Origin: Candidatus Sulfopaludibacter sp.
GTDB lineage: Bacteria > Acidobacteriota > Terriglobia > Bryobacterales > Bryobacteraceae
Assembly (NCBI GenBank): GCA_031292755.1
Contig: JARLGM010000005.1
Coordinates: forward strand, 1-64,000
Reading direction: 5' to 3'
Length of the DNA: 64,000 bases
The first letter of the stretch is position 1. Every line of letters begins with the position of its first letter. Shown one piece after another: positions 54,068 through 62,716 of the stretch. A program made the translations under genes and the position numbers. The notes below the pieces were generated by a model. That model saw only the letters and a program-made list of their open reading frames with translations. It had not been told where the DNA came from and ran no database searches.

Positions 54068-54167
54068 GATTCGTGTCCCTTCATTTGCAGTATGCGGAGT
54101 GGGCATGGCCTGGGTCCAACGAGTAATCCTGATGGCCGATTGGATCTTCTTATGCCGGCGTGAAAAT

Positions 54168-54187
54168 ACTTGGCTATTTGGCCAAGT
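54168..54187. promoter_or_regulatory. ArsR operator palindrome
   Basis: ACTTGGC (54168-54174), six bases, GCCAAGT (54181-54187), a perfect inverted repeat. It starts at the -35 box and extends into the spacer of the promoter at 54170-54198. It is the natural binding site for the ArsR protein encoded next to it. Confidence 0.7.
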
Positions 54188-54198
54188 AGTGCTAGGAT
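54170..54198 (+). promoter_or_regulatory. Promoter of the lipoyl/DGC operon, leaderless
   Basis: TTGGCT (54170-54175), 17 bases, TAGGAT (54193-54198). The -10 ends six bases before the ATG at 54205, with no Shine-Dalgarno. The operator palindrome overlaps it. Confidence 0.55.
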
Positions 54199-54204
54199 GA
54201 AATC

Positions 54205-54531
54205 ATGATGGACCCCAGGACGCAGGCCAGGCTTGCAATCCGAGCTAATGTTTTCAAAGCATTAGCCCATCCTTCACGGCTCTTTATGGTGGAGCAGCTT
54301 GCCCGGAAATCCTGCTGCGTCTGCGAGTTGACGGAGATGATTGGAGCCGATATGTCCACTGTCTCCAAGCACCTGTCGGTGCTGAAGGGCGCCGGGATCG
54401 TCGCGGACGAAAAGCGGGGGCTTCAAGTGCACTACCGGCTGAAAATGCCCTGCGTCCTGAGGTTTTTCGACTGCGTCGGCGAAGTGGTCGAAACCAACGC
54501 GAAGGAAGAGTGGGAACTGGTCAAACGTTGA
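54205..54531 (+). CDS. ArsR-family regulator with cysteine metal/thiol site, first gene of the lipoyl/DGC operon
   Basis: 108 residues. Winged helix FKALAHPSRLFMVEQLARKS, CCVCELTEMIGADMSTVSKH and LSVLKGAGIVADEKRGLQVH. The CCVC triplet at the start of the recognition helix is the position of the ELCVC metal site of ArsR, so it can sense a thiophilic metal(loid) or a reactive sulfur species. Sixteen bases separate it from the mini-thioredoxin gene. All genes to 59866 follow on the same strand with gaps of at most 16 bases, so it heads and probably controls the whole operon. Confidence 0.9.
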   Translation: MMDPRTQARLAIRANVFKALAHPSRLFMVEQLARKSCCVCELTEMIGADMSTVSKHLSVLKGAGIVADEKRGLQVHYRLKMPCVLRFFDCVGEVVETNAKEEWELVKR

Positions 54532-54547
54532 ACGAAAGGGAATACGG

Positions 54548-54796
54548 ATGTCTAAAATTAAGATATTAGGAACCGGATGTACGAAATGCCGCAACCTGAC
54601 AGCGAATGCGGAAAGGGCGGTTCAGGAACTCGGGATTGAGGCAGAGATCGAGAAGGTCACCGAGGTCCAGGACATCATCAAGTTTCAGATCCTCATGACG
54701 CCGGGCCTGGTCATCGACGGGCAGGTGAAGTCGGCGGGCCGCGTCCCGTCCGTGGAGGAGATCCAACAGATGCTTCAGGCGGCGGGAGGCAACTGA
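54548..54796 (+). CDS. TM0996/MTH895-type mini-thioredoxin
   Basis: 82 residues: MSKIKILGTGCTKCRNLTAN, with the redox pair C11 and C14 in a CxxC at the end of strand 1. The rest follows the thioredoxin fold (ILMTPGLVIDGQVKSAGRVP, with the cis-proline TP). Such small proteins are often found next to ArsR genes in metal(loid) operons. Here it is the likely dithiol exchange partner of the DGC or lipoyl proteins. One base separates it from the next gene. Confidence 0.88.
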   Translation: MSKIKILGTGCTKCRNLTANAERAVQELGIEAEIEKVTEVQDIIKFQILMTPGLVIDGQVKSAGRVPSVEEIQQMLQAAGGN

Positions 54797-54797
54797 A

Positions 54798-55175
54798 ATG
54801 GCGCAAGCACGCCCCGGGCTCCTGATGTGCGTGTGCACCGGGAAGTGCCCGGGTTTCGAAAAGATGGACATCTGGGACTTCATCAACCGCGCCCGGGTGG
54901 AATTGCCGGTGGAATACGGCGCGATTCATCCGCAACTCTGCGAGGTGGACGGCGACCGGTTTCTGGCCGATTTCCTGGAAGCGAAGCGGCCCGTGGTGAT
55001 CGCAGCCTGCGCGCCCAACATGCAATACAAGATGTTCCGCGACGCCTTTGCGGAGAAGGGGCTGGATGTGAAGCGTGACATGACCCCGCTGGACATTCGG
55101 GACATGACCACTGACGACGCGATCCAGAAAGTCGCCTCGGCGCTGCACGCGATGGGGGTGGAAGACGATGGCTGA
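54798..55175 (+). CDS. Stand-alone HdrA N-terminal-like Fe-S domain
   Basis: 125 residues. LLMCVCTGKCPGFEKMDIWD, IHPQLCEVDGDRFLADFLEA, RPVVIAACAPNMQYKMFRDA and DMTPLDIRDMTTDDAIQKVA follow, in order, the sequence landmarks of the N-terminal domain of heterodisulfide reductase HdrA, which binds a [4Fe-4S] cluster. The flavin domain and the rest of HdrA are absent. Five cysteines are available. It would pass electrons between the ferredoxin gene product (overlapping by eight bases) and a thiol partner. The assignment rests on motif order only. Confidence 0.65.
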   Translation: MAQARPGLLMCVCTGKCPGFEKMDIWDFINRARVELPVEYGAIHPQLCEVDGDRFLADFLEAKRPVVIAACAPNMQYKMFRDAFAEKGLDVKRDMTPLDIRDMTTDDAIQKVASALHAMGVEDDG

Positions 55176-55455
55176 GACAACGTTCATGGGAGTCCCCCGG
55201 GATCAGATTCCCTGGTTCCCCACCATCGACTACGATAAGTGCACCTTCTGCATGGAGTGCGATACGTTCTGCCCGCATCATGTTTTCGAGCGGCGCGAGG
55301 GCGACCGTCCCCTGGCGATTGCGAACCCGGCCAACTGCGTGGTGTTCTGCCGGGCGTGCGCGAAGACGTGCGGTCCGGATGCGCTCTCGTTCCCTGGCAA
55401 GCCGGAAACCATTGCCCGGATCAAACAGATCCGGGAGGGAGCAAGCAGCAAATGA
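55168..55455 (+). CDS. Ferredoxin, two-cluster type
   Basis: 95 residues. CTFCMECDTFCPHHVF gives one complete CxxCxxCxxxCP-like ligand set, and CVVFCRACAKTCGPDALSFP a second, so it can hold two [4Fe-4S] clusters. It overlaps the HdrA-like gene by eight bases and the DGC-GcvH gene by four. It is the likely electron donor or acceptor of the operon. Confidence 0.85.
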   Translation: MAETTFMGVPRDQIPWFPTIDYDKCTFCMECDTFCPHHVFERREGDRPLAIANPANCVVFCRACAKTCGPDALSFPGKPETIARIKQIREGASSK

Positions 55456-56297
55456 AACGAGCGATTCTGTCGTGCAATGGGCTGGACAAGCCGGAGGGGT
55501 CGGTGGCGCGGGAGGTGGCGATCCGCGGCGCGGAGGCGACTGGGGCTGAAATCATCTGCCCCGTCCTGCTGAATCGAGCGCCGGCGCGTTACCGCAAGGC
55601 GCTCGCCGATAGTGCGGTAACGGTGGTGGACGGATGTTCGACGCGGTGCGCAACCAGGCTCGCCAGCCAACTGAAGGCGAACGTGGAGCGGAAGGTCCTG
55701 GTATCGGATGCCGTGAAAGGTTCGGGACAGGCGCTGGAATCGACGCTGGCGCTGGGGCCAAATGGTGTGGCTTTGGCCCGGAGGATCGTCGAGGAACTGG
55801 TCCGCAACCTGAGCGCGCCGGCGGTTGCCGGGGAGCCGGCGGCAGAATTTGAGACGCCGGTGGAATATCTGGCGGTGACGCACGACAAGTTCGAATTCCG
55901 CATTCCCGTAGTGGATTACCTGTTCAATGAGAACGACGTTTGGGTACGCGCGTCGGATGGCGTGGCGCGAGTAGGTATCTCCGACTACATGCAGCAGAAG
56001 CTGACCGATGTCAGTTACTTCGACCCCCCGAAGGTGGACTCGGGCGTGGAGCAGTTCGGCGAGTTGGGTAGTCTGGAATCGGCCAAGGCGGTGTTTGAGA
56101 TCATTTCGCCGGTTGGCGGGAATGTGACGGCGGTGAATCGCGCCGCGATCGACAACCCCGCGCTCGTCAATGAAGATCCTTACGGCGCGGGGTGGCTGGT
56201 GGAAGTGAAGTTGACGCATTGGCCGGAAGACCAGGAATTGCTGGTGGATGCGGCGGCGTATGCCGGGATCGTCCAGCGGAAAGCGGCAGAGGAATAA
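55452..56297 (+). CDS. DGC zinc-binding-like domain fused to a GcvH-type lipoyl carrier
   Basis: 281 residues from the ATG at 55452, overlapping the ferredoxin stop. Residues 1-120 are a DGC-domain protein (PF08859-like): C8 in AILSCNGLDKPEGS and D60-G61-C62 with C66 in VVDGCSTRCATRL. Residues about 138-275 match glycine cleavage H protein: DGVARVGISDYMQQKLTDVS, then GSLESAKAVFEIISPVGG, where K212 is the expected lipoyl lysine, and NEDPYGAGWLVEVKLT. No glycine cleavage P or T protein is nearby, so this is more like LbpA-type lipoate-binding proteins of sulfur metabolism. I know of no described protein with this fusion. Confidence 0.82.
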   Translation: MKRAILSCNGLDKPEGSVAREVAIRGAEATGAEIICPVLLNRAPARYRKALADSAVTVVDGCSTRCATRLASQLKANVERKVLVSDAVKGSGQALESTLALGPNGVALARRIVEELVRNLSAPAVAGEPAAEFETPVEYLAVTHDKFEFRIPVVDYLFNENDVWVRASDGVARVGISDYMQQKLTDVSYFDPPKVDSGVEQFGELGSLESAKAVFEIISPVGGNVTAVNRAAIDNPALVNEDPYGAGWLVEVKLTHWPEDQELLVDAAAYAGIVQRKAAEE

Positions 56298-56312: not shown

Positions 56313-56741
56313 ATGGGAAATACATCTACCCAGAGTCCCGTGCTGGTCATCCCGTGTAGCGGGATCGGCAAAGTTCACGGTTTGATGAGTCGCGAAGCCA
56401 CCTACCTGGTGACCGACGAGTGTGCCGCCGGCCGGACCGATACGCTGTGTCTGGCGTTGTTGGTGAAGGGCGACCCGGACGCGGTGGCGGCGGTGCGAAG
56501 CCATGCCTGCATTACCATTGACGGGTGCGCCAAGGCCTGTGCGGAAAAGAACGTGGCCATGGCCGGCGGGCGGGTGGCCAGGGCGGTGCAGGTGGCGGAG
56601 GCTTTCAAGAATCACCGCGGCGCAAAGCCCGGCAATGCGACCGCGTTGACCGATGACGGGTGGGTCATCGCACGTGAGATAGCCGCGTCGGTCGCCTGCG
56701 AAGCGGCAAGCCTGAGTGACGCCGGGGAGGTGATTCGATGA
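56313..56741 (+). CDS. DGC-motif protein, second copy
   Basis: 142 residues, GAGGAAC before the ATG. C15 in VIPCSGIGKVHG, C46, C66 in SHACITIDGCAKAC, with D70-G71-C72 and C76. The layout is the same as in the fusion protein and in the next gene. DGC proteins (PF08859) are called putative zinc-binding; the cysteines could equally carry sulfur or another soft metal. There is no signal peptide or membrane segment. Confidence 0.78.
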   Translation: MGNTSTQSPVLVIPCSGIGKVHGLMSREATYLVTDECAAGRTDTLCLALLVKGDPDAVAAVRSHACITIDGCAKACAEKNVAMAGGRVARAVQVAEAFKNHRGAKPGNATALTDDGWVIAREIAASVACEAASLSDAGEVIR

Positions 56742-57439
56742 GCGCGGGAATCTCCAAGGTCGGCATCATTTCGTGCAGCGGCGAAGCGATTCCCGAAGGG
56801 ACGATTTCGCGCCTGGCGACGCGCCGGGTTCTGGAACTGCTGCGGCCCGAGGCGACCGTCACGCTTTGCCTGCCGCTGTTCCTTGCCGGAAATGAAGCCG
56901 AACGGAATTTCGCCAAGACGCATCCTACAATCACGATCGACGGGTGCGACAAGCTGTGCGCCAAGTGGGGCACCGAAGAGCACAGCGGCCCGGTCCATTC
57001 CTCGCTGGTGGTAGCCGACATCCTCGGCACAAAGGCTGCGGGCTGTCAGCGTTCGTCGGGGAACGCTTCCCGGCCGGACCAGGAAGCGGTGTGGGCGGTT
57101 GCGGAGCGGATTGCCGCCGAAGTCGACACCATACTTTCGGAGACGGAATCGCCGGATGGCGCGGCGGCCGTGGCGAGCGGGGCGCAGTGTTCGTGCGCCG
57201 GCCCGGTGCCGGGCGGAACACTCACCATCGAGGGAGCTACCGTGCGGATCCCCGGCCTGGCGCTCATTTTTGGGCAATGCGCCGAACGCAGCATTCCCGC
57301 GGACGCCGGCGGCTGTGGCGCTCTGCTCGACGCCGTGAGAATCTATCACCGCATCGCGCCGGAGGAAGAAGCCGGCTACCGGGGTGCTCTGCTTGCGGCG
57401 TACCAGGACTTCAGGATCGGAGTCCAGCCGGCGAAATGA
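56738..57439 (+). CDS. DGC-motif protein, third copy, with extra C-terminal domain
   Basis: 233 residues, start overlapping the previous stop (ATGA). The DGC part has C13 (IISCSGEAIPEGTIS), C44 and TITIDGCDKLCAKWG with D68-G69-C70 and C74. Residues about 150-233 are an extra domain: AQCSCAGPVPGGTLTIEGAT, VRIPGLALIFGQCAERSIPA and EEEAGYRGALLAAYQDFR. I do not recognise this domain; its four cysteines (CSC, GQC, GGC) suggest a metal or thiol function. The lipoate ligase gene overlaps its stop. Confidence 0.75.
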   Translation: MSAGISKVGIISCSGEAIPEGTISRLATRRVLELLRPEATVTLCLPLFLAGNEAERNFAKTHPTITIDGCDKLCAKWGTEEHSGPVHSSLVVADILGTKAAGCQRSSGNASRPDQEAVWAVAERIAAEVDTILSETESPDGAAAVASGAQCSCAGPVPGGTLTIEGATVRIPGLALIFGQCAERSIPADAGGCGALLDAVRIYHRIAPEEEAGYRGALLAAYQDFRIGVQPAK

Positions 57440-58182
57440 TGGAACTGGTATTCTGGTCGGCGCCGACCGTCGCCGGGAACCTCGCCATGGACGATACAGC
57501 CGCGCGCCGGGCGTGGGCGACGGCACTTCAGCGCCTGCGGTTCTGGTGGGGCGGTCCGCCGGCGGTGGTGATGGGTTCCAGCGAGCGGCTGGAACAAGTG
57601 GTGGACGCCGGGGCGTGCGCCAGACTCGGCGTAGACGTGCTCCAACGATCCACGGGCGGAGGCAGCGTTCTCCAGACGGGCGATGTGCTGAACTACTCGC
57701 TGGTGACGCCGGCGCCCGCGAGCCTGGACCCAAAGGCCTGCTTCCGTCCGGGCATAGAACTGATTTGCGCGATCCTGGCGGGCTTCGGCGTGGCGGGAAG
57801 ACCGGAAGGGACGTCGGATGTCGCGGTGGAGGGCCGAAAAATTTCCGGAAACGCGCAAGCCCGGCGGTGGAAGGCGGTGCTGGTCCACGGGACGTTGCTG
57901 GTTGACTTCGATTATGACCTTGCCGGCGCGGTGCTGAAACATCCGCCGCGAGAGCCGGCGTACCGGCGAGAACGCAATCATCGGGAGTTCCTGGTGACCT
58001 TGCGTTCGCTGGGGGTGAAAGCGGACCGTGTGGCCATAGAACAAATAGCGATGCACGCCGCGCGACAGGTATTCGGAGCGGTCAAGGAGGGCAATTATGA
58101 AACGTTACGCATGGATGTTGACTCTTGCAGTTGTGGCGCTGGGGCAAGTGGCCCATCAGCACCACCCTCCCTCATCGGGTGA
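57436..58182 (+). CDS. Lipoate-protein ligase family protein
   Basis: 248 residues from the ATG at 57436, overlapping the previous stop. Ligase motifs are RSTGGGSVLQTGDVLNYSLV (70-90), the lipoate-loop and catalytic lysine K135 in SDVAVEGRKISGNAQARR, and HGTLLVDFD. It attaches lipoate or octanoate to an acceptor lysine; the acceptor here is almost certainly K212 of the DGC-GcvH fusion in the same operon. The C-terminal accessory domain is short. Its last 86 bases overlap the start of the methyltransferase gene. Confidence 0.85.
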   Translation: MMELVFWSAPTVAGNLAMDDTAARRAWATALQRLRFWWGGPPAVVMGSSERLEQVVDAGACARLGVDVLQRSTGGGSVLQTGDVLNYSLVTPAPASLDPKACFRPGIELICAILAGFGVAGRPEGTSDVAVEGRKISGNAQARRWKAVLVHGTLLVDFDYDLAGAVLKHPPREPAYRRERNHREFLVTLRSLGVKADRVAIEQIAMHAARQVFGAVKEGNYETLRMDVDSCSCGAGASGPSAPPSLIG

Positions 58183-58714
58183 GTACGCGAAGGTATTGGA
58201 GGATCCTTCGCGCGATGAATGGCAGAAACCTCACGATGTGGTCATGGCTCTGGATCTGAAACCGTCCGATGCGGTAGCGGATATCGGGGCGGGGACCGGA
58301 TATTTCGCTCGTCGCTTTGCTTTTCACGCGGGGAAAGTCTATGCGGTCGATATAGATGACAAGCTGCTTGCGATCGTGCGCGAGAAGGCGCCCCCGAATC
58401 TGGTGACGGTTCTCTCCGCACCGGATGACCCTCGCCTGCCGGAGCAGTCAATCGATATGATCTTCTTCTGTGACGTGCTCCACCACATAGCGAACCGGCC
58501 GGCGTACTTTGCCAGACTCGCCAAGGTTTTGAAACCAGGCGGGCGTATTGTGGTCATTGATTTCTATGAGCGACCTCTCCCGATCGGCCCTCCGCCATCG
58601 ATGAAACTCTCGGACCGGCAAGTCATCGGAGAGCTTCAGAAGGCCGGCTTCGCCCTGGCAAAACGCATGAGCACGCTGCCGTATCAATACTTCCTGTTCT
58701 TCGAGAGACGGTAA
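58097..58714 (+). CDS. Exported class I SAM-dependent methyltransferase
   Basis: 205 residues, GGAGG before the ATG. An export-like N-terminus (MKRYAWMLTLAVVALGQVAH) precedes an intact Rossmann-type fold: AVADIGAGTGYFARRFAFHA (motif I), VYAVDID, IDMIFFCDVLHHIANRPAYF and RLAKVLKPGGRIVVIDFYER. SAM is a cytosolic cofactor, so either the leader is a membrane anchor facing inward or the enzyme acts without being exported. Methylation of a metal(loid) or thiol would suit the operon. The start is 86 bases inside the ligase gene. Confidence 0.8.
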   Translation: MKRYAWMLTLAVVALGQVAHQHHPPSSGEYAKVLEDPSRDEWQKPHDVVMALDLKPSDAVADIGAGTGYFARRFAFHAGKVYAVDIDDKLLAIVREKAPPNLVTVLSAPDDPRLPEQSIDMIFFCDVLHHIANRPAYFARLAKVLKPGGRIVVIDFYERPLPIGPPPSMKLSDRQVIGELQKAGFALAKRMSTLPYQYFLFFERR

Positions 58715-58720
58715 CGGGCG

Positions 58721-59866
58721 ATGAGTTCCATGCCGCGCGAAGATTCGATTTCTCTCGAACGCCTGCTGCTGGCGTTTCTGAAGATCGGCAGCGTCGGCTT
58801 TGGCGGAGGAATGGCCGTAATCGCACTGATGGAACAGGAGTTCGCGCACAAACGCCGGCTCCTCAGCGTGGACGAATTCGTTCATGGAGTGGCTCTGGGG
58901 CAAATTCTTGGACCGTTTGCGGCAAACGCGGCGATCTTCATCGGTTACCGGCTTTATGGGCCGCAGGGAGGCCTGCTTTGCGCCGTCGCATTCCTGGCGC
59001 CATCGGTGGCGCTGGTCATCGGGCTCTCTTACCTGTACTTCGAGTATCACTCGATCCCGGCTCTGCAGGGGATAGTCGCGGGGCTGGGGCCCGTTGTGAT
59101 CGCACTGATCTGCAGTGCCGGATGGAGCATTGCCCGCAAAGTGGTGCGGACACCGCCGGCGTGGATCATTGCGGTGGCGGCGGCAGCGGCGGGCATTGCC
59201 AGGCTGAATTCGATCTGGGTCCTGCTGGCGGCCGGGGCAGCGGGGTTGTTGCTTCGCGGGGGCGGCGAGGCTGCCGCTACCGACCCGGTGAGGCCCCCAT
59301 CCGGATCGGCCTTTGCTATCGCACAAATGAGCCTTCCGGCCGTGGCGTCATTGTTCGGTATCGCGGCCACGTTTCTGAAGATTGGTCTGGTGTTCTTCGG
59401 AGGAGGGTTTGTGCTGGTGCCGGTGCTCCACCATCACCTGGTCACAGAGCTTCACTGGTTGACTCCGCGGGAATTCCTGGACGGCGTGGCCATCAGCAAT
59501 CTGACGCCCGGACCCATTGCGGTGCTTGCCACCTTCGCCGGATATCGCGTCGGAAGCGTTGCCGGGGCTTTGGTCGCGACCGTTGCACTGTTCGCTCCCG
59601 GCGTCGCACTGATGCTCTTCATCAGCCGCCAATACGCGCGCTTCCGCGGCGATCCTCGCGCCAGCCGCTTCCTGAATGGGATCAACCCGGCGGTGACGGG
59701 CTTGATCTTCGCCGCTGCCGTGTTGCTCGGTCCCGCCGGACTGGCATCCTGGCGCGGTCTCATCTTGTCGGGCGTGTCATTCGTCCTGCTGACGCGCCTT
59801 CGGTGGCACCCGGCCTTTGTCCTCGGGATAGGCGCGGTAGCAGGCTACCTGGGAGTTTGCCCGTGA
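58721..59866 (+). CDS. chrA: ChrA-type (CHR family) transporter, long form
   Basis: 381 residues, two homologous halves as in long-chain CHR proteins. Half 1: LAFLKIGSVGFGGGMAVIAL and GVALGQILGPFAANAAIFIG. Half 2: ATFLKIGLVFFGGGFVLVPV and GVAISNLTPGPIAVLATFAG. CHR proteins export chromate and can move sulfate-like anions. As the last gene of a thiol-redox operon, it may export an oxyanion such as sulfite, sulfate or chromate. Six bases separate it from the methyltransferase. Confidence 0.88.
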   Translation: MSSMPREDSISLERLLLAFLKIGSVGFGGGMAVIALMEQEFAHKRRLLSVDEFVHGVALGQILGPFAANAAIFIGYRLYGPQGGLLCAVAFLAPSVALVIGLSYLYFEYHSIPALQGIVAGLGPVVIALICSAGWSIARKVVRTPPAWIIAVAAAAAGIARLNSIWVLLAAGAAGLLLRGGGEAAATDPVRPPSGSAFAIAQMSLPAVASLFGIAATFLKIGLVFFGGGFVLVPVLHHHLVTELHWLTPREFLDGVAISNLTPGPIAVLATFAGYRVGSVAGALVATVALFAPGVALMLFISRQYARFRGDPRASRFLNGINPAVTGLIFAAAVLLGPAGLASWRGLILSGVSFVLLTRLRWHPAFVLGIGAVAGYLGVCP

Positions 59867-59969: not shown

Positions 59970-60680
59970 ATGACAACTACCATGACTTTGGCCGACTTGG
60001 CCGCCACCTCGTTGAGCGCCACCGGCATTCTGGAACAGCACGGCCTGGACTACTGCTGCGGCGGGAAGCAGCCGTTGGAGCAGGCTTGCCTCGCGAGGGG
60101 GATCAAGCCGGGGACCATCCTGCGAGAAATCGAGGAGGCCAAGGTCGCCAGCGCGGCTGCCAGGGACTGGCGGACGGCGCCGCTCGATGAACTGGTGAAG
60201 CACATCGTGGCAACTCACCACGCGTACCTGAAACTGGACCTGCCTGTGTTGGGCCACCGCCTGGATAAGGTGGTATCGGTCCACGGCGCTCGCGATCCGG
60301 AGGTGCTTCCGCGCATGGCGGAGGTGTTCGCTGCGTTGCGCGCCGAACTGGAAATGCACCTGCATAAAGAGGAAGCGATCCTGTTTCCGTTTATCGAGCA
60401 GTACGGGCGCGCCGAGGTCCAGGGCCGGCCGATGCCCCCGGTTCCTTTCGGATCGATCGCCAACCCGATCGCGATGATGGAGCGTGAGCACGTGAAAGCG
60501 GGCGATGGCCTGAGCGAGATCCGCACCTTGACCAATGATTTCAACCTGCCTTCGTACGCGTGCAGCACGGTTCGAGCGCTTTATGAGGGGCTGCAAGTGC
60601 TGGAAGCGGACTTACACGTGCATATCCATCTGGAGAACAATATTCTGTTTCCACGCGCCATCGCGCTGGAAAAGCGATAG
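59970..60680 (+). CDS. ric: RIC/YtfE-ScdA di-iron Fe-S cluster repair protein
   Basis: 236 residues, AAGGAG before the ATG. The N-terminal ScdA-type domain has SLSATGILEQHGLDYCCGGK with the CC pair. The hemerythrin-like domain has the iron ligands in VATHHAYLKLDLP, ELEMHLHKEEAILFPFIEQY and MMEREHVKAGDGLSEI, then DLHVHIHLENNILFPRA. It repairs iron-sulfur clusters damaged by nitric oxide or peroxide. A Crp/Fnr-type palindrome lies upstream and a Crp/Fnr gene downstream. The preceding operon contains several Fe-S proteins it could protect. Confidence 0.93.
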   Translation: MTTTMTLADLAATSLSATGILEQHGLDYCCGGKQPLEQACLARGIKPGTILREIEEAKVASAAARDWRTAPLDELVKHIVATHHAYLKLDLPVLGHRLDKVVSVHGARDPEVLPRMAEVFAALRAELEMHLHKEEAILFPFIEQYGRAEVQGRPMPPVPFGSIANPIAMMEREHVKAGDGLSEIRTLTNDFNLPSYACSTVRALYEGLQVLEADLHVHIHLENNILFPRAIALEKR

Positions 60681-60696: not shown

Positions 60697-61374
60697 TCAA
60701 GCGTGGGCCTCCGCCTCCTGCTCGAGTCCCGCCCGGTTCACGATTTCAACCTGCCGGTCCTGGATCCGGATCAGACCCTGTGCCCGAAAGCGGGCCAGAT
60801 TCCGCGAGACTACCTCGCGAACGGTCCCCAGGCGCGACGCCAGTTCCTGATGGGTCAGGGGGAGATCGAAGGTCGCGGCGCCCGCGCCTTTCGAGGCGTC
60901 GAGCAGCAGACGCGCGAGGCGCTGTGTGACGCTGCCGAAGGTCATGGCTTCCACCAGGCCCACGAGGTGCCTCAGCCGGCGACCTACCACGGCAAGAACT
61001 TTCAAGGCGACCTCGGGGTACTGGCGGCAGACCTGTTGGAAGTCGTTCTTGTTGATAAACAGAGAGACCACCGGTTCCACTACTCGAACCGATGCCGGGT
61101 ACGGTCCGCCGTCGAACAGCGGCAGTTCGGCCACGGATGCGGGCGCGGATTCAATCGACAGCATCACCTCGCGCCCGCCCGGAGATGTCCGAAAGATCTT
61201 GACGCTCCCCTGAACGATGAGGAACATGCCGGCGCACTCCTCTCCTTCCCAAAAGAGCATTTCGTCCGGAGCGTACCGCTTCTCGACAGCGCGTTGGGCA
61301 AGTCCTTGCAGTTCGCTTTCGCTGAGGGCCGCGAACAGGGCAATTTCCGAGAGCGCTGTAGTTTTGGCTGCCAA
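60697..61374 (-). CDS. Crp/Fnr-family regulator without Fe-S cysteines (Dnr-like)
   Basis: 225 residues with a TTG start at 61374; TACCAT ends six bases before it on the minus strand. The sensor domain (IALFAALSESELQGLAQRAV and FWEGEECAGMFLIVQGSVKI) lacks the N-terminal cysteine cluster of Fnr. The DNA-binding helix is LTHQELASRLGTVREVVSRN, with the E..SR recognition residues typical for TTGAC/GTGAC-type boxes. It converges with ric, 16 bases between stops. A heme-based NO sensor of the Dnr kind would make sense here; no heme ligand can be proven from sequence. Confidence 0.85.
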   Translation of the reverse strand: MAAKTTALSEIALFAALSESELQGLAQRAVEKRYAPDEMLFWEGEECAGMFLIVQGSVKIFRTSPGGREVMLSIESAPASVAELPLFDGGPYPASVRVVEPVVSLFINKNDFQQVCRQYPEVALKVLAVVGRRLRHLVGLVEAMTFGSVTQRLARLLLDASKGAGAATFDLPLTHQELASRLGTVREVVSRNLARFRAQGLIRIQDRQVEIVNRAGLEQEAEAHA

Positions 61375-61423
61375 GCACCCATGGTATCCGAAAGACCGGC
61401 GGGCCTGCCTTGGTAGAATCGGG

Positions 61424-62716
61424 ATGAGCTTGATCTCTCCGCCGAGTTGCGACCTGCTCTACGGTAATGCCCGCTTGCCCGTTCGCGTGGCAGGCGACAG
61501 GCTTGTGCCCCGCGCCGGCGACCCGATCGGCGATGAGACGCGTGCTGTCATGGATGCACTCGAGCATCCCATCGGGAGCGCGCCGCTTCGCGAGATGGTG
61601 CGGCCGGGAGAACGGGTGGCGATCGTGGTCAACGACATCACCCGCCTGACGCGAACCGACCTGATGCTGCCGCCGATTGTCGAGACACTGAACGCGGCAG
61701 GGATTCCCGACAAGGACATTTTCATCGTGTTCGCGCTGGGCATCCACCGGCGGCAAACCGAGGAGGAGCGCCGGCTGATCGCGGGCGCGGAGATCCACGC
61801 GCGCATTCGATGCTTCGACCACAACGCCACCGACGACGCCGGCCTGGTGGAGATCGGCACGACCAGCTTCGGCAACCGGGTGGAGATCAATCGGGAGGTG
61901 TGGGATGCGGACCGCATCATTCTCACCGGCGAGATCATCTATCATTTGATCGCCGGCTATTCGGGCGGGCGCAAAAGCCTGGCGCCGGGGGTGGCGGGGT
62001 TTCGCACGACAACTTTCAATCACCGGATGATTTTCGATCCGCGCTGCCGGTCGGGACAACTGGACGGCAATCCCGCTCACGAGGATCTGCTGGAGGCCTG
62101 CCGCATGGCCGATCCCGATTTTCTGGTGAACGTGGTGTTGAGTCCCGATGGCAAGTTGATCCGCGTGGTGGCGGGCCACTACGATCTGGCGCACCGCGAA
62201 GGATGCCGCACCGTGGACCGCATGTTGCGCGTGGACGTTCCAGCGCCGTACGATCTGGCGATCGCGTCGGCGGGCGGCTTTCCCCTGGATATCGATCTGC
62301 GGCAAGCGCATAAAGGCCTGGAGAATGCCTGCCAGGCACTGCGTCCGGGCGGCGCCATTTTATTCTATGCGGAGTGCCCGAACGGAGCGGGCATCGGGTC
62401 TTTCGAAGAGTATGTGCACCGCTACCGCGACGATTTCGAGATGCGCGAAGCCCTCTCGCGCGAGTTTGTCGTGGGCGGACATAAGGCTTATTGGGTGGCG
62501 CGGCTGGGGCGCTTGTACAAGGTACATCTGGTCTCCAGCCTGGAGGCGGAATTCGTGCGGCGCTGCCATTTCACTCCGGTCTCACCGGCGGAACACGAGG
62601 CGGTTCTGGCCAGGCTTGTACGGCAGGCGGGGCCGGGGTCGCGGGTCGCGGTGATCCCTTATTCCGGCTTCACGCTGCCGGCTGCTGCTGTTCCACGGGA
62701 GGTCCTGTCTTCCTGA
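61424..62716 (+). CDS. larA: LarA-like nickel-pincer lactate racemase family protein
   Basis: 430 residues from MSLISPPSCDLLYGNARLPV. LarA signatures: VNDITRLTRTDLMLPPIVE (active-site D and R), ALGIHRRQTEEE, RCFDHNATDDAGLVEIG, ILTGEIIYHLIAGYSGGRKS (cofactor lysine region), and NPAHEDLLEACRMADPDFLV. The family racemises or epimerises alpha-hydroxy acids with a nickel-pincer nucleotide. The cofactor genes larB, larC and larE are not in the window. The physiological substrate may not be lactate. It is divergent from the Crp/Fnr gene. Confidence 0.88.
   Translation: MSLISPPSCDLLYGNARLPVRVAGDRLVPRAGDPIGDETRAVMDALEHPIGSAPLREMVRPGERVAIVVNDITRLTRTDLMLPPIVETLNAAGIPDKDIFIVFALGIHRRQTEEERRLIAGAEIHARIRCFDHNATDDAGLVEIGTTSFGNRVEINREVWDADRIILTGEIIYHLIAGYSGGRKSLAPGVAGFRTTTFNHRMIFDPRCRSGQLDGNPAHEDLLEACRMADPDFLVNVVLSPDGKLIRVVAGHYDLAHREGCRTVDRMLRVDVPAPYDLAIASAGGFPLDIDLRQAHKGLENACQALRPGGAILFYAECPNGAGIGSFEEYVHRYRDDFEMREALSREFVVGGHKAYWVARLGRLYKVHLVSSLEAEFVRRCHFTPVSPAEHEAVLARLVRQAGPGSRVAVIPYSGFTLPAAAVPREVLSS

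Follow-up and report, generated by a model that had tools for sequence, protein, structure and literature searches.

The question raised by this locus is what a protein does that joins a cysteine-containing DGC domain to a lipoyl domain of the GcvH type. The protein is encoded in the window, the 64,000-nucleotide stretch of Candidatus Sulfopaludibacter sp. DNA analysed here, and has the following features:

55452..56297, + strand: DGC-GcvH fusion protein (core gene 3), one uninterrupted open reading frame of 281 amino acids
55461..55721, + strand: DGC domain, residues 4-90, Pfam PF08859 (E=4e-14, 53 bits versus a gathering score of 27)
55923..56276, + strand: GcvH-type lipoyl domain, residues 158-275, Pfam GCV_H PF01597 (E=3e-29, above the curated cut-off; TM 0.94 to 3klr)
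56085..56087, + strand: codon of Lys212, the predicted lipoylation site, in an ES-x-K-A context that is invariant in 26 of 26 sequences

Both Pfam domains lie in the single 281-residue frame, as stated in the initial annotation, which had described them as covalently joined and had also placed the DGCxxxC motif and the lipoyl lysine correctly: C62 and C66 lie within D60-G61-C62-S-T-R-C66 (DGCSTRC) and K212 within ELGSLES-A-K212-A (ESAKA). The two domains are present as described, although the limits assigned to them (1-120 and 138-275) are slightly wide compared with 4-90 and 158-275. C62 and C66 were rightly named and are invariant, but C8 and C36 in the DGC domain, also invariant, were overlooked; the four residues form a four-cysteine pattern. 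Membership in the DGC family (PF08859), which is usually described as zinc-binding, is supported by score, DGC motif and the four invariant cysteines. The earlier reading holds for the fused domains and the residues named in them; it missed the operon and its arsenic setting, where most of the meaning lies.

A scan of genome contigs revealed 19 loci encoding relatives along the whole fusion protein. Those of Acidobacteriota are 60-80% identical and those of Clostridia, among which is Fusibacter sp. 3D3, 39-46%; the others come from one Planctomycetaceae bacterium and one unclassified bacterium. Seven more fusion loci in Clostridia genomes bring the number beyond the window to 26, and locus counts of 27 refer to the window (W) plus these 26. 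The residues C8, D12, K13, C36, P37, D60, G61, C62, C66, A67, E209, S210 and K212 are invariant in all 26 intact fusions (the window and 25 relatives); L005, which shows no intact open reading frame over the first ~50 fusion residues, was left out. The host's own assembly repeats the frame (G000:C234:55452-56294). A frameshift or misassembly joining two genes, the objection raised at the outset, is ruled out by the uninterrupted reading frame, the 26 further loci and the conservation across several phyla. The distribution of the fusion is rare and patchy: whole-genome sampling found it in 2 of 396 Acidobacteriota genomes and, within the class to which Fusibacter belongs, in 7 of 391, one of which has two copies. 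In a plasmid search the best matches of the fusion were gcvT-gcvH at 27%, with none above 60%, and a DGC2 query gave zero matches. The open-access papers searched contain no description of the fusion, in line with the initial claim, or of the five-gene cassette in which it is found. The fusion is real, conserved and apparently undescribed.

The AlphaFold2 model of the fusion, computed from 19 sequences, has a mean pLDDT of 86 and a pTM of 0.64 and contains two domains. Residues 122-128 between them are unconserved and predicted to be disordered (pLDDT <50). The second domain matches the bovine H-protein 3klr with a TM of 0.94 and an rmsd of 1.4; for the DGC part (residues 1-120) no convincing match in the PDB was obtained by sequence or fold. 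Since the model consists of separate folds joined by a disordered linker, it is possible that K212 reaches C62 and C66. Direct transfer between the cysteines and the lipoyl arm, which the initial annotation took the covalent link to imply, would be one option; with two further DGC genes directly adjacent, transfer could equally occur between proteins.

The surrounding operon contains the following further features:

54167..54188, no strand: perfect 8-bp inverted repeat TACTTGGC-N6-GCCAAGTA, 16 bp upstream of arsR, a candidate ArsR operator
54205..54531, + strand: ArsR/SmtB-family repressor with CVCEL and, near the C-terminus, PCVxxFFxC (NCBIfam NF033788, E=1.7e-25)
54548..54796, + strand: small thioredoxin-like protein, MTH895/ArsE family (TIGR00412, E=7.8e-31)
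54798..55175, + strand: 125-aa HdrA-N-terminal-like protein (core gene 1); best Foldseek matches are the HdrA chains 7bkd_A, 7bkb_A and 5odh_A
55168..55455, + strand: ferredoxin with two [4Fe-4S] cysteine motifs (core gene 2), Pfam Fer4, conserved in position and overlapping both neighbours
56313..56741, + strand: stand-alone DGC-domain protein with the same four cysteines (core gene 4), PF08859 (E=2e-14)
56738..57439, + strand: DGC-domain protein with a C-terminal extension (core gene 5), PF08859 (E=1e-14)
57433..58182, + strand: lipoate-protein ligase, catalytic domain only, putative start codon, PF21948 (E=1e-32)
58097..58714, + strand: class I SAM methyltransferase with an N-terminal signal-like segment, accessory; also adjoins the cassette in L005 and L016
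58721..59866, + strand: ChrA-type chromate transporter family protein, accessory, PF02417 (E=3e-82); kept with the cassette in L005

Arms of at least 8 bp, as in the repeat upstream of arsR, arose in 20 of 1000 shuffles, and L011 has a similar repeat, ATTTGGC..GCCAAAT, ahead of its ArsR gene. An ArsR-family gene is present in nearly every homologous locus; CVCEL occurs in the repressors of the window, L001, L011 and L012 and is absent in the other loci. Repressors of this family can also sense sulfane sulfur or metals. The 125-aa core protein shows 76% mean column identity across phyla, with C11, C13, C17, C48 and C71 invariant. Its model (pLDDT 85) matches a 137-residue Hdr-complex subunit, presumably MvhD, more weakly than HdrA. 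It resembles the N-terminal domain of HdrA, or MvhD, in predicted fold and cysteine-rich start, but differs in being stand-alone, without FAD or ferredoxin domains and without HdrBC. The signal-bearing SAM methyltransferase travels with the Acidobacterial cassette (window 58097-59866, including the transporter; L005 10637-12613; L016 10665-11285), and is followed by the ChrA-type transporter in the window and L005. Just downstream of the operon are encoded a ScdA/Ric-type hemerythrin protein (DUF542 plus hemerythrin; 59970-60680) and, on the opposite strand, a CRP/FNR-family regulator (60697-61374); a lactate racemase LarA-like protein (Lar_N plus LarA_C) is found at 61217-62716.

The five core genes, encoding the HdrA-N-terminal-like protein, the 2[4Fe-4S] ferredoxin, the DGC-lipoyl fusion and two DGC proteins, form a cassette that is present in all loci with a long enough contig; in loci that are broken or lie at contig ends, among them L004, L005, L007 and L011, part of it is cut off. 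In the window the genes overlap or nearly touch, and in L012 their order differs. Core genes 4 and 5 carry the same four cysteines as the DGC domain of the fusion; a TGA flagged in L012 as possible selenocysteine in DGC proteins is a normal stop. The usual companions of the cassette are ArsR, the ArsE-type thioredoxin and an enzyme of lipoyl supply (lipoate ligase) or recycling (dihydrolipoyl dehydrogenase). The ligase occurs in both clades, the Clostridia version adding a C-terminal PF10437 domain, and one Clostridia clade has as its first gene a dihydrolipoyl dehydrogenase (TIGR01350, 526 bits; cut-off 409). Nearly all DGC domains of the 14 carrier genomes tested sit in the cassette, and the family occurs in one of 14 control genomes. 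A further stand-alone DGC-like reading frame, recognised by eye, lies in L016 (13586-13960), with ArsC and an ArsE-type thioredoxin upstream of it and ArsG downstream. In Clostridia ars islands, a cysteine-desulfurase-family gene and a putative Fe-S protein gene (PF04060 in L035) recur beside DGC genes (L035 6936-8623; L038 6820-8513; L036 11899-13592; L044 8986-10566). Upstream of the Acidobacterial cassette of L009 (6472-6738) an 88-aa fragment matches the beginning of dihydrolipoyl dehydrogenase at 64% identity and is perhaps the remnant of a lost gene of this kind. A divergent HdrA-N-like and ferredoxin gene pair at L060 (G946:C49, 1-2000) has a permease and a thioredoxin-like gene as neighbours, with DGC and lipoyl genes absent, and may belong to a related but different, simpler system.

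The fusion shares the lipoyl-domain fold and the ES-x-K-A lysine site with GcvH, and its GCV_H Pfam match and fold could be taken to indicate an H protein of glycine cleavage extended by one domain, or a chimera created during assembly. This reading is refuted and retains hardly any probability. The fusion is kept across phyla, and its lipoyl domain scores below the GcvH equivalog cut-offs (PRK01202, 110 versus 117 bits; NCBIfam TIGR00527, 94.6 versus 115.85). In a tree of the fusions and nine GcvH proteins from carrier genomes, rooted by midpoint only, all fusions fall on one side of a 100/100 branch that separates them from the host GcvHs. No gcv genes were seen near the examined cassettes; the full gcvT-gcvH-gcvPA-gcvPB operon of the host is located elsewhere (all genes except gcvH recognised by eye), and the host also has a separate dihydrolipoyl dehydrogenase gene. 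By score, context and phylogeny the fusion is not a GcvH, and the lipoyl-domain tree fits a single fusion event. The dihydrolipoyl dehydrogenase that stands first in several Clostridia cassettes recalls the lipoyl cycles of the 2-oxoacid dehydrogenases and the glycine cleavage system, which depend on this enzyme; however, the cassettes contain no E1/E2 or gcv enzymes.

At 18 of the 27 loci, at least one of ArsM, Acr3, ArsC, ArsA, ArsD, ArsP/SaoE and ArsG is encoded within the stretch examined, as counted by BLAST to representatives identified with curated models plus Pfam matches. These representatives are an ArsM-ArsE-type thioredoxin fusion (L001), Acr3 and ArsC (L002), a SaoE-like permease (L015) and ArsG (L003). 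ArsA and ArsD occur at L015, L036 and L039, a split ArsP_1 permease at L033, and in four Acidobacteria (L001, L002, L006, L016) the gene order starts with ArsM fused to the ArsE-type thioredoxin. The nine loci without a recognised ars gene besides ArsR are W, L005, L007, L009, L012, L017, L018, L019 and L037; the contigs of L007 and L017 are short. Of 18 carrier genomes searched for Acr3 as a control for chance, 6 have it no more than ~10 kb from the fusion, where 0.12 would be expected (Poisson p=5e-9); the 18 genomes were not chosen for Acr3, and closely related ones are not fully independent. The association of the cassette with ars genes is strong and goes beyond chance. In the window, the arsenic genes near the fusion are ArsR and the ArsE-type thioredoxin only, and the Acr3 of the host is on another contig; since the window itself is a weak arsenic case, the arsenic interpretation rests on its relatives.

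Stand-alone DGC genes of Clostridia genomes provide an independent hint of an arsenic link, three of four lying in ars surroundings: between an ArsP-like gene and ArsR, near Acr3 (L042); after ArsR-ArsC (L043); and in an ArsR-ArsD-ArsA-ArsP-thioredoxin island, where ArsA and ArsD were recognised by eye (L044). The fourth (L045) has no ars gene nearby and is near a YeeE-like transporter gene, recognised by eye. Being small, cysteine-rich and located in ars islands, with a possible hand-over of As(III), the DGC proteins are similar to the arsenic metallochaperone ArsD of ars operons; they differ in belonging to another Pfam family and in their four-cysteine pattern, and some cassettes also adjoin an ArsD gene.

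It is very probable that the cassette serves arsenic metabolism or resistance. There is about an even chance that the fusion serves as the carrier in a lipoyl-dithiol system dedicated to arsenicals; the narrower claim, binding or reduction of arsenicals by the lipoyl arm itself, falls just short of that. Arsenite binds dihydrolipoyl groups tightly, and lipoyl groups are its textbook target. From the observed architecture, invariant residues, conserved cassette and arsenic-gene context we infer lipoylation, arsenic binding, the direction of electron flow and the exact substrate. The site and the adjoining ligase suggest that Lys212 carries lipoate, which the lipoate ligase would load. Reduction of the lipoyl disulfide would fall to dihydrolipoyl dehydrogenase, operon-encoded in Clostridia and encoded at another place in the host genome of the window, or else to the ferredoxin together with the HdrA-like protein. 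Trivalent arsenic (arsenite or an organoarsenical) would then be bound by the dihydrolipoyl arm and by the DGC sites with their four cysteines, and be kept away from the housekeeping lipoyl enzymes. It would pass between the three DGC proteins before being methylated (ArsM-ArsE) or exported (Acr3, ArsP/SaoE, ArsG), and the oxidised dithiol would be re-reduced afterwards. It is proposed tentatively that the arm acts as both carrier and reductant, arsenic passing between the DGC sites and protein-bound dihydrolipoyl while the HdrA-like Fe-S protein and the ferredoxin supply electrons.

The nearest working analogue of the cassette is the sHdr-LbpA system of Hyphomicrobium and Thioalkalivibrio, in which a GcvH-like single lipoyl domain functions outside carbon metabolism (PMC6067878). 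The likeness extends to an operon-encoded lipoate ligase dedicated to the system, to Fe-S partners of the Hdr kind and to the ArsR-type repressors reported for Hyphomicrobium sHdr (PMC6067878, PMC12423496). An unlikely alternative built on this likeness is a sulfur-handling system, in which the lipoyl arm would carry sulfane sulfur or persulfide, the DGC cysteines pass sulfur, and the HdrA-like protein and ferredoxin handle the electrons; on this view the ars genes nearby would be due to thioarsenic chemistry or to regulation in common. The HdrA-like fold of the 125-aa protein, the cysteine-desulfurase-family genes near the Clostridia cassettes of L035, L036, L038 and perhaps L013, and the YeeE-like neighbour of the DGC gene in L045 fit sulfur chemistry. 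The desulfurase and YeeE-like genes are also counterpoints to the arsenic reading, as are the wider sensing range of ArsR-family repressors and the usual description of the DGC family as zinc-binding. LbpA, however, has two conserved cysteines near its N- and C-terminus (PMC6067878), while the lipoyl domain in the window has none and the 26 sequences show no conserved cysteine column there. The hdrC1B1A-hyp-C2B2 set was not found adjacent to the fusion, which only the HdrA N-terminal-like protein and ferredoxin adjoin, and no HdrB, HdrC, full HdrA, DsrE or TusA was recognised in the cassette. The neighbourhood consists of ars genes in place of the sulfur-oxidation genes (sox/shdr), and the cassette fuses DGC to the lipoyl domain and adds two DGC proteins. 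The fusion shares with LbpA the conserved lipoyl lysine (K212, 26 of 26) and the nearby dedicated lipoate ligase; with marker cysteines and Hdr genes absent, it is not an LbpA, but may work like one.

Two further readings keep arsenic as the subject. It is quite improbable that the cassette only reduces ArsM and ArsC. In that case a thiol relay reserved for these enzymes, running from ferredoxin/LPD via lipoyl to the ArsE-thioredoxin, would regenerate the disulfides of methyltransferase or arsenate reductase, and the DGC sites would have a structural role (zinc). Thiol reductants are a known requirement of ArsM, and the ArsM-ArsE-type thioredoxin fusion lies directly upstream of the cassette in the four Acidobacteria mentioned, but most cassettes, that of the window included, have no ArsM, and three DGC proteins with identical four-cysteine patterns exceed the needs of a relay. 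A reductase for pentavalent arsenicals (arsenate or methylarsonate), with electrons flowing from ferredoxin through the HdrA-like protein to the lipoyl dithiol and As(V) bound at the DGC cysteines, is distinctly unlikely. It would make use of the low-potential electron carriers among the core genes, and could take part in the arsenate-dependent growth without ArrAB of Fusibacter sp. 3D3 (PMC9751042), which carries the cassette (L018). The same paper gives ArsR-1 (WP_069871038) and the ferredoxin Fdx-3 (WP_069871041) for this strain, and the spacing of the accession numbers, taken by itself, would fit the operon's ArsR and ferredoxin; its main text does not contain the words 'lipo', 'heterodisulfide' or 'glycine cleavage'. 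Against a reductase, several loci already encode a thioredoxin-type ArsC, the cassette is also present in Acidobacteria, for which there is no evidence here of arsenate respiration, and no known reductase fold was identified in it.

If the proposed lipoyl-dithiol arsenic system is true, the known roles of lipoate in carbon metabolism and in sHdr sulfur oxidation would be joined by a third, and the DGC family (PF08859) would gain a probable function. The cassette would be a candidate for unexplained arsenic steps, such as the arsenate-dependent growth of Fusibacter sp. 3D3 without ArrAB, and annotations as 'GcvH' or 'dihydrolipoyl dehydrogenase' in ars islands need not mean carbon metabolism. 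The system would represent new metalloid biochemistry, in which the classic victim of arsenite, the lipoyl swinging arm, is turned into an arsenic-processing tool.
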